This document shows, in pieces, positions 3,961 to 9,448 of a stretch of DNA of 14,527 nt (position 1 is its first letter; each line of letters starts with the position of its first letter). The stretch spans positions 1-14,527 of the forward strand of contig PMXT01000024.1 of NCBI GenBank assembly GCA_003170995.1, given 5' to 3'. The notes beneath the pieces were generated by a model. It was not told the DNA's origin. It worked only from the letters and a program-made list of their open reading frames with translations, and ran no database searches. Position numbers and translations under genes: made by a program. The DNA comes from Actinomycetota bacterium. GTDB taxonomy: Bacteria > Actinomycetota > Thermoleophilia > Gaiellales > Gaiellaceae.

Positions 3961-4263
3961 CTAGCTGGTCTTGGCAAACCGGCGCACCGCCTCTAGCAGC
4001 TCGCGCGATTTCTCGGCCGCGACCTCGGCATCGCCAGTGGCGAGAGCACCCGCGACGCAGTGACGAACGTGCCTGTCGAGGATGGTGAGCGCGAGACTCT
4101 CGAGCGCCGTCGTCGTCGCTGCGACCTGGGTGAGAATATCGATGCAGTAGCGCTCCTCGGCGACCATGCGCTCGATCCCGCGCACCTGACCTTCGATGCG
4201 GTGCAGGCGCTTGATCAGTGCATCCTTTTCTTCCACGTAACCAGAATCGACGTGCCCGCTCAT
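3961..4263 (-). CDS. csoR: CsoR-type copper-sensing transcriptional repressor
   Basis: This 100-residue all-helical repressor of the CsoR/RcnR family releases DNA when it binds Cu(I). The family signature is present: KDALIKRLHRIEGQVRGIERM, then ERYCIDILTQVAA, then DRHVRHCVAGAL. The copper ligands of CsoR proteins (Cys, His, Cys) correspond to Cys40, His65 and Cys69, spaced as in the Mycobacterium tuberculosis protein, which supports copper rather than nickel or formaldehyde specificity. The ATG at 4261-4263 overlaps the copA stop in an ATGA arrangement. It is the last gene of copZ-copA-csoR and probably autoregulates through the operator upstream of copZ. Only 60 nt separate its stop from rpmG and I see no terminator there. 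Confidence 0.93.
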   Translation of the reverse strand: MSGHVDSGYVEEKDALIKRLHRIEGQVRGIERMVAEERYCIDILTQVAATTTALESLALTILDRHVRHCVAGALATGDAEVAAEKSRELLEAVRRFAKTS

Positions 4264-6464
4264 CGCTCGCTCCTCGGGCTCGTCTCGAGACGCAAGCTCC
4301 CGAAGCGGCGCAGCCGAAGGCTGTTCCCGACCACGAGTAAGCTCGAGGCCGACATCGCCGCCGCCGCAATGATCGGATTCAGCAAACCGGCCGCCGCGAT
4401 CGGAATCGCAGCGACGTTGTAGGCGAAGGCCCAGAAGAGGTTGCTCTTGATCGTGCGCAGCGTTCGTCGCGCCAGACTGACCGCGTCGGCAACGGCGCGC
4501 AAGTCGGTCGAGGTGAGCGTCACGTCACCGGCCTCGACAGCGATGTCGGTACCGCTTCCGAGCGCCAGCCCCAGGTCGGCCTGGGCCAGCGCGGGCGCAT
4601 CGTTGATGCCGTCTCCAACCATGGCAACCACTTCACCTGCCGCCTGCAACTCGCGGATAACGGCCGCCTTCTCACCGGGAAGCACCCCGGAGCGCGCCCG
4701 CTCGATCCCAAGCTCGCGGGCGACCGACCTCACCGTGCGCTCATTGTCGCCCGAGAGCAGAAGCGGCTCGAGTCCCAAACGCTCGAACAAGCGAATCGCT
4801 ACCCCGCTCGAAGGCTTCGTGGCATCTCGCAGTGAAACGAGACCACGCACCTCCCCATTCCAACCAGCGGCAGCGACGGTCATGCCCTCGGCCTCGAGCT
4901 CACCGACGCGAGCCTCTAGCTCGTCCGACAACGTCAGCCCATGCTCGCGCAGGAAAGCGGGTCGACCGACCAATACAGCGCGGCCCTCGACGAGCGCCTC
5001 GACGCCGAGCCCAGCCTCGCTTCCGAAACGCTCGACCTCGGGTAACGACTTCTCGCGTGCCCGCGCGTAATCCACCAGAGCCCGCGCGATCGGATGCTCG
5101 CTCGGCGCCTCGGCGGCACCGACCAGCCGAATCAGCTCGGGCTCGCTCGCACCCGTGACCGTCACGACTCGTGCCACGCTCATCCGTCCTTCGGTCACCG
5201 TTCCGGTCTTGTCGAGGACGATGGTCGTGATCCGGCGCGTACGCTCGAGCACCTCGGGGCCGCGAATCAGAACTCCGAGCTGAGCGCCACGGCCGAGCCC
5301 CGCCATCAGCGCCGCCGGCGTGGCAAGGCCGAGAGCGCAGGGGCAAGCGATCACGAGCACTGCGACCGCCGCCGTGAAGGCGGTGGCCGCGCTCGCGCCG
5401 GCAAGAAGCCAGAGCGCGAGCGTTGTCGCTGAGATCGCGATCACCAGCGGCACGAACACGACCGAGATGCGGTCGACCAAGCGTTGCACCGGCGCCTTAC
5501 CGGCTTGCGCTTCCTCGACCAGGCGCGCGATTTGAGCGAGCGCCGTATCCGAGCCGACCCTGGTCGCGCGCACGAGCAGGCGACCGTAGCTGTTGATGGC
5601 TCCACCCGCTACGACATCGCCGGTGGCGACCTCGACGGGCACCGCCTCGCCGGTCAGGAACGACTGGTCGATCGCCGAGCTGCCGTCCTCGACGAGACCG
5701 TCCGTCGCGATCTTCTCTCCGGGACGAACAACCACGAGATCGCCGACTCGCAGCTCCCGGGCCGGGATCCGAACTTCTTCCCGCTCGCGCAAGACCGTCG
5801 CTTCTTTGGCGCTCAGCTCGAGCAGCGAGCGAATCGCGTCGCCCGAGCGCCGCTTGGCGCGCGCCTCGAGAAAGCGACCGAGCAGAACGAGAGCTGTGAT
5901 CGCAGCCGCGGCCTCGAAGTAGCTCGGCGCATCGAGACCGAGCCCGACCACCGCGGCCGACCAGCCCCAGGCGCTGAGCGTGCCAAGCGAGACGAGCGTG
6001 TCCATGGTCGCGCCGGAATGGCGCAGATTGCGCGCGGCGGCGCGGTGAAACGGCCAGCCGGCCCAGAACACGACCGGCGTGGAAAGCGCGAGCGCGAACC
6101 ACTCCCAGCCCGCAAACTGAAACGGAGAGATCATGGCGACGAGCAACAAGGGAAGGCCGAGCATGGCCGCGGCGGCCAGACGAACTCCGTCGCGAGAGCC
6201 GCTCAGTCCTCGCTCGTGGGCCTGTTCTGGGTTGCGTGCTCGGGCGTCGTAACCCGCGCTCTTGACCGCGGCGACGAGATCGTCAACTTGCAGCTGCGCC
6301 GGGTCGAAATGGACGTAGGCCTGCTCACTGGCGAAGTTGACCGTCGCCGACGCGCCCTCGAGCGCGTTCAGCTTGCGCTCGATCCTGGTCGCGCAGGAGG
6401 CGCAGGTCATCCCTTCGAGCTCGAGTTCGATCAGCTCCGCGTTTTCTGTCACCGCCGCACTCAC
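4260..6464 (-). CDS. copA: Copper-exporting P1B-type ATPase
   Basis: This 734-residue membrane pump uses ATP to export Cu(I) from the cytoplasm. An N-terminal heavy-metal domain has GMTCASC (Cys21, Cys24). The transmembrane ion site CPC is at 374-376, inside VIACPCALGLATP. The actuator loop TGE is at 271-273. The phosphorylation motif DKTGT has catalytic Asp418, the P1B nucleotide-binding SEHP is at 455-458 and the hinge GDGIND is at 617-622. YN (682-683) and MSASS (704-708) in the last two membrane helices complete the Cu(I)-ATPase signature. It has one HMA domain. The start is GTG (6462-6464), overlapping the copZ TGA by 4 nt. The length is typical of bacterial CopA with one metal-binding domain. 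Confidence 0.96.
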   Translation of the reverse strand: MSAAVTENAELIELELEGMTCASCATRIERKLNALEGASATVNFASEQAYVHFDPAQLQVDDLVAAVKSAGYDARARNPEQAHERGLSGSRDGVRLAAAAMLGLPLLLVAMISPFQFAGWEWFALALSTPVVFWAGWPFHRAAARNLRHSGATMDTLVSLGTLSAWGWSAAVVGLGLDAPSYFEAAAAITALVLLGRFLEARAKRRSGDAIRSLLELSAKEATVLREREEVRIPARELRVGDLVVVRPGEKIATDGLVEDGSSAIDQSFLTGEAVPVEVATGDVVAGGAINSYGRLLVRATRVGSDTALAQIARLVEEAQAGKAPVQRLVDRISVVFVPLVIAISATTLALWLLAGASAATAFTAAVAVLVIACPCALGLATPAALMAGLGRGAQLGVLIRGPEVLERTRRITTIVLDKTGTVTEGRMSVARVVTVTGASEPELIRLVGAAEAPSEHPIARALVDYARAREKSLPEVERFGSEAGLGVEALVEGRAVLVGRPAFLREHGLTLSDELEARVGELEAEGMTVAAAGWNGEVRGLVSLRDATKPSSGVAIRLFERLGLEPLLLSGDNERTVRSVARELGIERARSGVLPGEKAAVIRELQAAGEVVAMVGDGINDAPALAQADLGLALGSGTDIAVEAGDVTLTSTDLRAVADAVSLARRTLRTIKSNLFWAFAYNVAAIPIAAAGLLNPIIAAAAMSASSLLVVGNSLRLRRFGSLRLETSPRSER

Positions 6465-6814: not shown

Positions 6815-7966
6815 TCAGCGCTTGCCGGCGAGGAAGTCTCGCACTAGCTGGTGATAGTCCGGCACCGGCAACAGGAAGGAGTCGTGGCCCCAGGGCGAGG
6901 CGATCTCCTCGCGCACGAAGTCGCACCCCGCTTGCTCGAGCACACGCCCGATCTCGAGCGAGTGCGCGGTCGAGAAGCGCCAGTCGGTATCGAAGCTGAC
7001 CACCAGGAAGCGGGTCGGGTTCTCGCGCAGCCGCGCGACGGCCGCCTCTTCATCGGCGAAGGGATCGAAGTAGTCCATGACGCGCGAGAGGTAGAGGTAG
7101 GTATTGGCGTCGAAACGCCCGAGGAACTTCTCTGCCTGGTGATCGAGGTAGGACTCGATCTGGAAGTCGATACCGAAGGTCGGCCCCTGCGTATCCCTAC
7201 GCTCGCGCCCGAACTTTCGCTCCAGCGCCTGCTCGGACACGTAGGTGATGTGGCCGAGCATCCTGGCCACGGATAGGCCCGAGTCGGGTTGGCGGTCAGT
7301 GCCGTAGTAGTCGCCGTTTTGGAAATTGACGTCGCGCATGATTGCGTTACGCGCAACCGAAGAGAAGGCGATGTTCTCGGGCGTCAGGCGCGACGAGGCG
7401 CAGATGACCAACGCGTTCTTCATCTCCCCCGGATGATCGATCGCCCACTGAAGAATCTGCATTCCACCCAGCGAGCCGCCGATGCCCGCATACAGACGCT
7501 CGATCCCGAGATCTTTGAGCAGGCGGCGCTGCACCTCGACCAGGTCGCGGACGCTGAAGTGTGGGAAGCGCAGCCCGTAGGGCGTTCCCGTCTTCGGATC
7601 GATCGAGGATGGTCCGGTCGTCCCCGAGCAGCCGCCGAGCAGATTGGAGCAGACGACGAAGTACGTGTTCGTGTCGACCGGCTTGCCGGGCCCGATCATC
7701 GAGTCCCACCAGCCGTCGGTCTTGGGTTCGCCATGGTGCCCGGCGGCGTGGGCGTCACCGGTCAGGGCGTGACAGAAGATGATCGCGTTCGAACGCTCGG
7801 CGTTGAGCTCGCCGTAGGTCTCGTAGGCGACGTCGACGGGCGCGAGCGTCTCGCCAGACTCCAGCACGAGCGGGTTCTCCTCGTCGAAGAGGCGCACGCT
7901 CTGGGTGGCGACGAGACCGGCGCTCGCTCCCGCCTCCGCGTTCGACCCAAGGGTCTCGTGGGTCAA
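6815..7966 (-). CDS. metX: Homoserine O-acyltransferase (MetX family, probably O-acetyltransferase)
   Basis: This 383-residue cytoplasmic alpha/beta-hydrolase-fold enzyme acylates the hydroxyl of homoserine, the committed step toward methionine. Family motifs are clear: FCHALTGDAH, GWWDSMIGPG, SNLLGGCSGTTGPSSIDP, the nucleophile elbow GIGGSLGGMQ with catalytic Ser165, ARMLGHITY, SYLDHQAEKFLGRFDANTYL, TDWRF with catalytic Asp328, and WGHDSFLL with catalytic His361. The start is TTG (7964-7966), chosen because AGGTGAG lies 5 nt upstream and no better in-frame start exists. Some MetX proteins use succinyl-CoA instead of acetyl-CoA; the C-terminal half here resembles proteobacterial MetX, so the donor is not certain. 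It follows metY by 186 nt, and its ribosome binding site is inside a long-range inverted repeat. Confidence 0.93.
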   Translation of the reverse strand: MTHETLGSNAEAGASAGLVATQSVRLFDEENPLVLESGETLAPVDVAYETYGELNAERSNAIIFCHALTGDAHAAGHHGEPKTDGWWDSMIGPGKPVDTNTYFVVCSNLLGGCSGTTGPSSIDPKTGTPYGLRFPHFSVRDLVEVQRRLLKDLGIERLYAGIGGSLGGMQILQWAIDHPGEMKNALVICASSRLTPENIAFSSVARNAIMRDVNFQNGDYYGTDRQPDSGLSVARMLGHITYVSEQALERKFGRERRDTQGPTFGIDFQIESYLDHQAEKFLGRFDANTYLYLSRVMDYFDPFADEEAAVARLRENPTRFLVVSFDTDWRFSTAHSLEIGRVLEQAGCDFVREEIASPWGHDSFLLPVPDYHQLVRDFLAGKR

Positions 7967-7968
7967 CA

Positions 7969-8133
7969 GAACTCACCTCGAAATGACGACCCGCCGACTG
8001 GGTGTGATCGGTGGATGCCAGGCACAGACGCAGCGTCACGTTCGTAGTCGGAGGCTACGGGCGCGACCGAGGACGAAGCATGGCGCCGCCGAGCGCGGCC
8101 AAGCGGTGGAGTGCTTCGTTTCGAGGTGAGTTC
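7969..8133 (-). promoter_or_regulatory. Candidate cis-regulatory RNA: 15-bp inverted repeat sequestering the metX ribosome binding site
   Basis: The metY-metX spacer contains GAACTCACCTCGAAA at 7969-7983 and its exact reverse complement at 8119-8133. In the mRNA the downstream arm includes AGGUGAG, the metX Shine-Dalgarno sequence, so pairing would hide it. The 135 nt between the arms can fold into side hairpins: CGAAGCA/UGCUUCG, GUAG/CUAC, GACG/CGUC and CCGAU/GUCGG. The upstream arm can instead pair with GAGGAGUU just after the metY stop (hairpin at 8123-8146), which would free the ribosome binding site. No SAM-I, SAM-II or SAM-IV core is recognisable. The pairing is seen; the switch function is inference. 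Confidence 0.5.
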
Positions 8134-8152
8134 CTGAAAACTCCTCATTGCC

Positions 8153-9448
8153 TTAGCTTGTCGTATCGGTAGCTTCCCGAAGTGCCTGATCGAGATCGGC
8201 GAGGATGTCGTCGATGTGCTCGATCCCGATCGAGAGGCGCACTGTGTCTCTAGTTACGCCTGCGGCCGCCAGCTCCTCGTCGTTCAGCTGCGCATGCGTG
8301 GTCGTCGGAGGATGAATGGCGAGCGACTTGGCGTCACCGATGTTGGCCAGATGGCTGAATAGCTTCAGGCTCTCGATGAACCGCGCGCCGGCCTCACTCC
8401 CGCCTTTGATGCCGAAGGTAACGAGGCCTCCATAGCCACCGGCGAGAACTCTGTCAGCAACCGCCTTATAGGGACTCGACTCGAGGCCCGGGTAGCTGAC
8501 CCAGGCAACGCTCGGGTGTGCTTCGAGGTGCTTGGCGACGGCGAGCGCATTGGCGCAATGGCGCTCGATCCTGAGTGGCAGCGTCTCCAGCCCCTGCAGC
8601 AAGAGGAAGGCGTTGAAGGGCGAAAGCGCGGCACCCGTGTTCCTGAGCAGCACCGTTCTCGCCCGGCCCACATAGGCGGCCGAGCCGAGAGCCTCCGTCC
8701 AGACGATCCCGTGATAGGAAGGATCGGGCTTGGTCAGACCGGGGAAGCGGTCGGCTTGCTTCGTCCAGTCGAAATTCCCCGAGTCGACCAGAACGCCGCC
8801 GATCGAGGTGCCGTGCCCACCAATGTACTTGGTCGCCGAGTGCACGATGACGTCGGCGCCGTGGTCGAACGCGCGGCAGAGGATCGGCGTCGGCACCGTG
8901 TTGTCGAGGATCAACGGCAGGCCAAGCTCGTGTGCGGCCTTGGCCCAAGCGTCTAGATCGACGACGTTCAACTTCGGATTGCCAATCGTCTCGGCGAAGA
9001 CGAGTCGTGTCTTCTCATCCACCAGCGCGGCCAGCTTCTCGGGCTGATCGGGATCGAGCCAGCGCACCTCGATTCCATACTGGGGCAGAGTGTGCGCGAA
9101 CAGGTTGTAGGTGCCGCCGTAGAGCGTCGAGACCGAGACGAAGTTGTCTCCGGCCCTCGCGATGTTGAGAATGGCATACGTATTCGCCGCTTGGCCCGAC
9201 GCGGTGGCGAGCGCTGCCACGCCACCTTCTAGCGCGTTCACTCTCTCTTCGAGCACCGCCCAGGTCGGGTTGCCGATGCGGGAGTAGATATTCCCCGGCA
9301 CCTTGAGCGCGAATAGATCAGCCGCGTGTTGAGTGTCGTCGAAGACGAACGAAGTGGTCTGGTAGATCGGCACCGCGCGGGCGCCTGTGGTCGGATCTGG
9401 TTCCTGGCCCGCATGCAGTGCCAGGGTCTCTGGTCTGAACTCGTTCAC
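8153..9448 (-). CDS. metY: O-acetylhomoserine sulfhydrylase (PLP-dependent)
   Basis: This 431-residue enzyme of the Cys/Met metabolism PLP family joins O-acylhomoserine with sulfide to give homocysteine (direct sulfhydrylation). It shows [20 protein letters not shown] and [10 protein letters not shown] at the N-terminus. YSRIGNPT (55-62) and ATASGQAA are PLP phosphate-site segments, and [12 protein letters not shown] follows. The Schiff-base lysine is Lys207 in [11 protein letters not shown]. The insertion around GIVWTEALG and length near 430 are typical of MetY (Met17) rather than the shorter MetB/MetZ proteins. I chose the GTG at 9446-9448, with GGAAGGAG 5 nt upstream. The frame is open for another 107 codons upstream, but that stretch is the riboswitch and terminator. 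It is controlled by a SAM-I riboswitch and followed by metX, which makes its substrate. Confidence 0.95.

Follow-up and report, generated by a model that had tools for sequence, protein, structure and literature searches.

A probable MITE-like insertion with a conserved one-strand fold in the metY–metX spacer of an actinobacterial genome

In the 14,527-nt stretch of DNA analysed here (the window), the genes for O-acetylhomoserine sulfhydrylase (metY, 8153–9445; TIGR01326 passed) and homoserine O-acetyltransferase (metX, 6815–7966; NF001209, above the NCBIfam cut-off) follow one another on the minus strand, and the spacer between them raises the question of whether it holds an RNA switch for metX. 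The original prediction of such a switch rested on a perfect 15-bp inverted repeat (7969–7983 with 8119–8133), one arm of which contains the present metX Shine-Dalgarno AGGTGAG (7972–7978, minus) 5 nt before the TTG start (7966–7964, minus), and on a second partner for that arm, GAGGAGTT (8146–8139, minus), just after the metY stop. We found all of these at the places claimed. With one G-T pair the repeat extends to 18 nt at 94%, giving a left terminal arm GAACTCACCTCGAAATGA at 7969–7986 and a right arm that pairs with it at 8116–8133 (both plus strand). When overlaps were excluded, shuffling the mononucleotides of the spacer 50,000 times never produced a separated 15-bp repeat; with tight overlapping palindromes counted too, 80 of 20,000 shuffles had one. 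The SAM riboswitch described upstream of metY is likewise present (RF00162, 9551–9675, minus, 57.8 bits); it is separate from the spacer element and is the sole Rfam match at gathering score within the window. A search of the spacer against Rfam, which had been proposed as a check, gave no covariance model match within 7900–8220 at E ≤ 1, in agreement with the claim that it shows no known SAM aptamer core, and a promoter and terminator scan of 7900–8300 found neither. The spacer is also strongly structured: folding beats dinucleotide shuffles on both strands, and by a wider margin on the plus strand, with RNA parameters (z −4.5 for the plus strand over 251 nt and −3.7 for the minus strand over 241 nt) and with DNA parameters (z −5.3 and −2.8, 170 nt each). 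Downstream of metX (3961–6464), a long frame that is presumably a metal P-type ATPase-like protein ends in a 4-nt overlap with a small frame that looks to us like a CsoR-type repressor.

The structured sequence is not confined to this spacer. When the spacer was queried against its own genome, an assembly of 200 contigs that totals 1.91 Mb and is 84% complete, it gave 45 matches at E ≤ 0.001, fragments included, spread over many contigs, and alignment of these matches with their flanks delimited a roughly 165-bp unit bounded by inverted ends. The model of this unit, R1, matches the window copy with 171.3 bits and ends exactly at 7969 and 8133. The arms are complementary in other copies as well. 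The unit was matched in at least 34 of 61 related genomes, all six of the genus among them, with the best 13 candidates scored per genome. With the best 150 candidates scored in each, R1 had at least 69 matches at E ≤ 0.001 in G000, 46 in G001, 52 in G002, 29 in G003, 37 in G004 and 61 in G005; these are not copy numbers, because the near-palindrome also matches on the other strand, with many second matches of 47–77 bits. Across the class R1 was found in at least 87 of 249 genomes and 46 of 107 genera (best 11 candidates scored each), and it was found in 11 of 296 genomes of the phylum. A distant-mode search of a plasmid collection gave no match to the unit. Five copies (L005, L007, L016, L018 and L021) lie at contig ends or within about 25 bases of them, which suggests that the repeat breaks draft assemblies.

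For the genomic context we used 70 near-complete copies, having set aside 45 matches that were partial, contained N or met a contig end, plus identical repeats. By a crude codon-usage gene caller, and with orthologous pairs counted separately, 68 of the 70 overlap no called gene, and every orientation is represented: the structured strand lies antisense between co-directional genes in 28 copies, sense in 13, between divergent genes in 15 and convergent genes in 11, with three unresolved. The unit is also found nested with palindromic repeats of at least one further family (GGCCTATCCC..GGGATAGGCC; GCACTACCAGTGCG..GGCATCCACGGC): such a repeat lies inside the unit in L014 and L031 of the own genome and around it in L002, L180 and L214. 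A subgroup with GAGCGC arms (L162, L171, L174, L190, L192, L207 and L209) sits in a common GC-rich flank, ccccgcgggtggg..., as if it had spread like a composite repeat.

The metY–metX spacers of relatives show what this locus looks like without the unit. metY and metX are adjacent, and the unit is missing, in all five congeners examined (G001–G005). The two closest of them, G005 (L053) and G002 (L055), have 18 nt between the metY stop and the metX start. The window has 186 nt, and the difference of 168 nt equals 165 + 3. The empty spacers read TAA-GAAAATGAGAGGTACCTG-TTG and TAA-GAAGATGCGGAGTACGAG-TTG, respectively, and that of the window TAA-GGCAATGAGGAGTTTTCAG-[165]-TG-TTG. GAGGAG (8141–8146, minus), upstream of the insertion, aligns with GAGAGG of G005 and GCGGAG of G002 just before the TTG, and this alignment indicates that it probably occupies the position of the native metX Shine-Dalgarno, separated from its start by the insertion. 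The second partner of the original prediction is present in the sequence as a competing pairing, but its GAGGAG corresponds to what serves as the metX ribosome site in the two closest relatives. R1 found no match in 80 named metX loci (0.53 Mb in total); five of these are apparently the congeners described above, namely Thermoleophilia bacterium Chersky.2_42 and four Actinomycetota from fen or palsa.

We asked whether the copies carry target duplications. A 3-mer shared by both ends occurs in 13 of the 55 genus copies whose flanks are independent, where 3.0 are expected and none of 5000 shuffles was as high; in other genera it is 5 of 21 copies, with 1.5 expected and 44 of 5000 shuffles as high. 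Repeats of 2 or 4 nt at the ends show no excess. The genus copies come from 80 typed matches of 133 (second-strand, truncated and a few weak matches omitted), 79 of them with flank, and the others are 23 of 24 copies from other genera; removal of shared flanks left the 55 and 21, or 69 when pooled. Since the best-scoring 13 or so copies per genome were used, the sample leans towards the window copy. The pooled duplications (15 of 69) are TAA in five cases, TTA in four, CAT in three, and TCA, CAC and CTA once each. The remaining 42 of 55 copies in the genus and 16 of 21 elsewhere have no 3-bp duplication. With the register shifted by one base the genus copies give 12 matches, and the ends of some copies may therefore be misplaced by a single base. 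The window copy itself has no exact duplication (CAG and TGT, or CAG and CTG with the end shifted by one).

Orthologous sites were found in both states. At the L164 site G001 carries the unit, while G000, G002, G004 and G005 have one CAT and no insertion, and G003 has the site in altered form. At the L169 site the unit is present in G001 and G003 and missing from G002 and G005; G000 holds 181 nt there. In G004 the L169 site holds a 43-nt remnant with both arms (L318), like an internally deleted copy. Four copies (L164, L169, L177 and L008) are inserted exactly at a start codon, often one that overlaps the preceding stop in a TAATG, with the ATG duplicated and both genes thereby left intact. 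The unit is therefore short and repeated, has inverted ends and target duplications, and is present at some orthologous sites and absent from others, all of them marks of a miniature inverted-repeat transposable element (MITE).

The ends point to a partner of the IS5 family. PF13340 was found in 6 of 33 genomes, and among the 17 loci examined were four distinct elements, from two related genera, with ends like those of the unit: L285, L295 and L297 in G006 (902, 900 and 897 bp) and L289 in G016 (1398 bp). Their 18-bp ends are GAACTCGAATCAGAATGA / GAACTCGAATCGAAATGA and GAACTCATTTCAGATTGA / GAACTCGTTTCAGAAAGA. The first 16 nt of one copy of the unit, GAACTCGAATCAGAAT in L022, are the same as these ends, and the window's left arm departs from them at a few positions. 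TTA stands on both sides of L285, L297 and L289, and TAA and TTA flank L295; IS5-type elements duplicate TNA-like triplets. The transposase of L285 (938–1839) is split over two frames. Against NF033580, which has a cut-off of 110 bits, one narrowly falls short with 109.6 bits and the other reaches 141.7 bits, and they also match PF13340 and PF01609. Split frames occur in IS5-family members that use frameshifting, and L285 may be such a member or a broken copy. Beyond the ends, the interior of the unit has nothing in common with the IS5 elements. None of the six genomes of the genus has PF13340, an absence that weighs little because the drafts are 77–93% complete; PF01609 was found in 7 of 15 genomes, G000, G001 and G002 included, and 16 of its 30 loci were scanned for ends, none of which resemble those of the unit, so that no partner is known in the genus itself.

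Because the unit is repeated, is missing from the congeneric sites, shows 3-bp duplications and has ends nearly identical to the 18-bp ends of IS5-family elements, we consider it very probable that 7969–8133 is a dispersed, non-autonomous MITE-like element with IS5-type ends, inserted between the native metX Shine-Dalgarno and the TTG. An IS5-type transposase would have moved it in trans.

MITE interiors are, to our knowledge, usually treated as free to drift. In this unit the plus strand, antisense to metYX in the window, has a conserved rod-shaped fold. In an alignment of 63 copies (A1) the rod comprises 55 pairs with 93.8% of cells paired, although the structure was derived from the same alignment, which favours it; 24 pairs show changes in both partners, in 188 cells altogether, every one of 500 shuffles falls short on all five measures, and slid controls pair 36–42%. 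The consensus energy is −70.2 on this strand versus −35.2 on the other for 64 genus copies (those of the 70 with 158–172 nt; A1 also omits L220), and −91.7 versus −39.1 for the window copy with 23 copies from other genera, all 24 of which also have the lower single fold on the structured strand. A copy in another family folds with a z of −7.95. Among those interior pairs that are mostly Watson-Crick, departures are to G-U in 126 cases and to A-C in 29, and 21 pairs lean to G-U against 5 to A-C (p 0.0025). At arm positions 1–11 we counted 41 G-U versus 14 A-C in 76 genus copies (3 of 79 omitted) and 14 versus 0 in 23 others.

Covariation of the arms had been named as a check on the predicted switch. 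The arms do covary among the dispersed copies, but the metY–metX spacers of the five congeners lack the unit. Covariation of the arms alone does not prove an RNA structure: both ends of a transposon are recognised by a single transposase, which can hold them to a similar sequence. The surplus of G-U in the arms points to pairing within one strand, although a strand-biased C-to-T change could add to that surplus. Taken together, the sequence comparisons suggest that interior and arms are under a one-strand fold constraint, and strand-biased mutation could contribute to the asymmetry; an RNA and a single DNA strand would fit the fold evidence equally. In the window the structured strand runs antisense to the operon, so the fold would be kept for the element rather than for metX. 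It may aid the element's own propagation or bind a factor.

The fold is accompanied by a conserved core. In the window the apical domain (8023–8075, plus) contains CACAGACGCAG ... GCGCGACCGAGGACG around a hairpin, in columns that are near-invariant in alignments of other genera and classes, and the core GCAAGG-CGCAG-GAG / CGACYGAG-ACG reappears in families from other classes, which have different ends. The broader model R2 was found in 29 of 396 genomes of the phylum (families f1, f5, f7–f10, f13, f49 and f50), in which members of alignment A5 match by construction. Members from f13 retain GCAAG-CCGCAG-GAG and CGA-CGAGAACG, and those from f49 have a variant core, GCAAGGCGCGAGGAG / GCGATCGAGGAACG. 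The ends in f13 and f49, for example GTGATCCTTCCG or GGTCCCCTGGGG, differ from the IS5 type yet are still complementary, and L301 and L302 of the own class have other ends too; therefore IS5-type ends do not define the whole family. The insertion sites differ as well: L325 precedes MGQKVHPYGFRLGVHTDWK, which we take to be ribosomal protein S3, and L332 adjoins LRIVILGPPGAGKGTQASRL, presumably adenylate kinase. Rfam gave no match at E ≤ 1 to the unit at five loci of other genera, and we found no description of it in PMC open-access texts. We tentatively suggest that the family could be a mobile structured RNA of the Actinomycetota that has so far gone undescribed. Its rod of some 160 nt would hold the conserved internal core; IS5-type ends would have served its amplification in several genera of Thermoleophilia, and in other classes of the phylum it would be carried by unrelated, yet complementary, ends. 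What persists would then be the RNA or the folded DNA strand, not the transposase end, and the core would be read by a factor of the host or of the element.

A fold confined to one strand is also what a single-stranded-DNA mobile element of the IS200/IS605-like, REPIN-like or attC-like kind would have, its folded DNA strand being the recombination substrate with no RNA needed. The one-strand fold is kept despite sequence change, with G-T type pairs favoured, and the plus strand folds better with DNA parameters too. Y1 transposition is not known to leave a target duplication, however, and the excess of 3-bp duplications, the one exact CAT duplication and the presence of similar ends on an IS5 element, whose transposase is of the DDE kind, make such a mechanism improbable for this unit.

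As for metX, its Shine-Dalgarno is predicted to be fully paired in the spacer mRNA (mean P(unpaired) 0.00, versus 0.70 for the native site of L053), in keeping with the hidden site of the original prediction; when only the last part of the spacer is folded, the value is 0.53. This pairing, the two competing pairings and the stable fold of the mRNA strand are what a cis-regulatory switch would offer, whether as a metabolite sensor or as a device coupled to the metY stop codon. That reading nevertheless has very little probability in our judgement, since the unit is missing from the five congeneric spacers and the 80 metX loci and stands beside other genes elsewhere in the genome, the better-conserved fold is antisense to metYX, and the competing partner is the native ribosome site of relatives. 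The observation behind the switch is confirmed and its interpretation in part supported, yet the unit is a mobile insertion and no methionine switch. An intermediate case, in which the insertion was later co-opted as a metX regulator in this one genome, with its end tuned to a good Shine-Dalgarno that opens under some condition, seems to us unlikely. Of 102 copies, only the window copy and L201 have GAGGTGAG and only 3 have perfect first 15 nt on both arms, and the spacing to the TTG is good. Against this, 42 of the 204 ends that read outward bear Shine-Dalgarno-like cores, GAGGTGAG lies at a different place in L201, and the arrangement occurs in one genome only. With the MITE-like insertion as the preferred account, the native ribosome site would have been displaced and the element's end would supply a substitute within a stable stem, which would probably lower metX translation. 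The hidden site is thus predicted to be a by-product of the insertion in a single genome, and reduced metX translation its likely consequence.

The unit resembles bacterial MITEs in general, as described in passages of a review (PMC10969869): these are short and intergenic, with inverted ends and, in some copies, a target duplication; their predicted transcripts are strongly folded, an insertion sequence moves them in trans, and it is suggested there that they might conceivably form riboswitches. What sets the unit apart is its covarying one-strand fold and a core common to genera and classes; covariation is not mentioned in those passages. It shares 18-bp ends such as GAACTCGAATCAGAATGA and TTA duplications with IS5-family insertion sequences (NF033580; PF13340 and PF01609), but has no transposase gene and an unrelated interior. 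QMITE1 and QMITE2 of Coxiella burnetii (PMC5896051) resemble the unit in being MITEs of high copy number whose predicted RNA folds are very stable; some of them are transcribed as small RNAs. Their sequences differ, the unit is known from DNA alone, and QMITE1 is described there as having no orthologues in other genomes, whereas the unit spans genera and classes. The bcr1 repeats of the Bacillus cereus group are also small, interspersed and mobile, with tens of copies per genome, but the bcr elements are linked to a TTTAT motif and a possible recombination-like mechanism (PMC6542083), in contrast to the 3-bp duplications and IS5-type ends here. REP and REPIN sequences (PMC3733652 and PMC3116915) are likewise dispersed intergenic palindromes, and the unit's apical hairpin holds a GTAG; they measure 20–40 bp, however, against 165 bp with 3-bp duplications and IS5-type ends.

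For metX the lesson is one of caution: where a hairpin covers a ribosome site in a single genome, it can turn out to be an insertion, and comparison with a handful of relatives is enough to decide. The family is noteworthy for its conserved one-stranded fold rather than for metX. For mobile DNA, it offers a covarying one-strand fold and a fixed core that recur across genera and classes, members with different ends included. The dependence of a bacterial MITE on its own RNA or folded single strand thereby becomes testable, and the covariance models offer a means of seeking a transcript and its partner.
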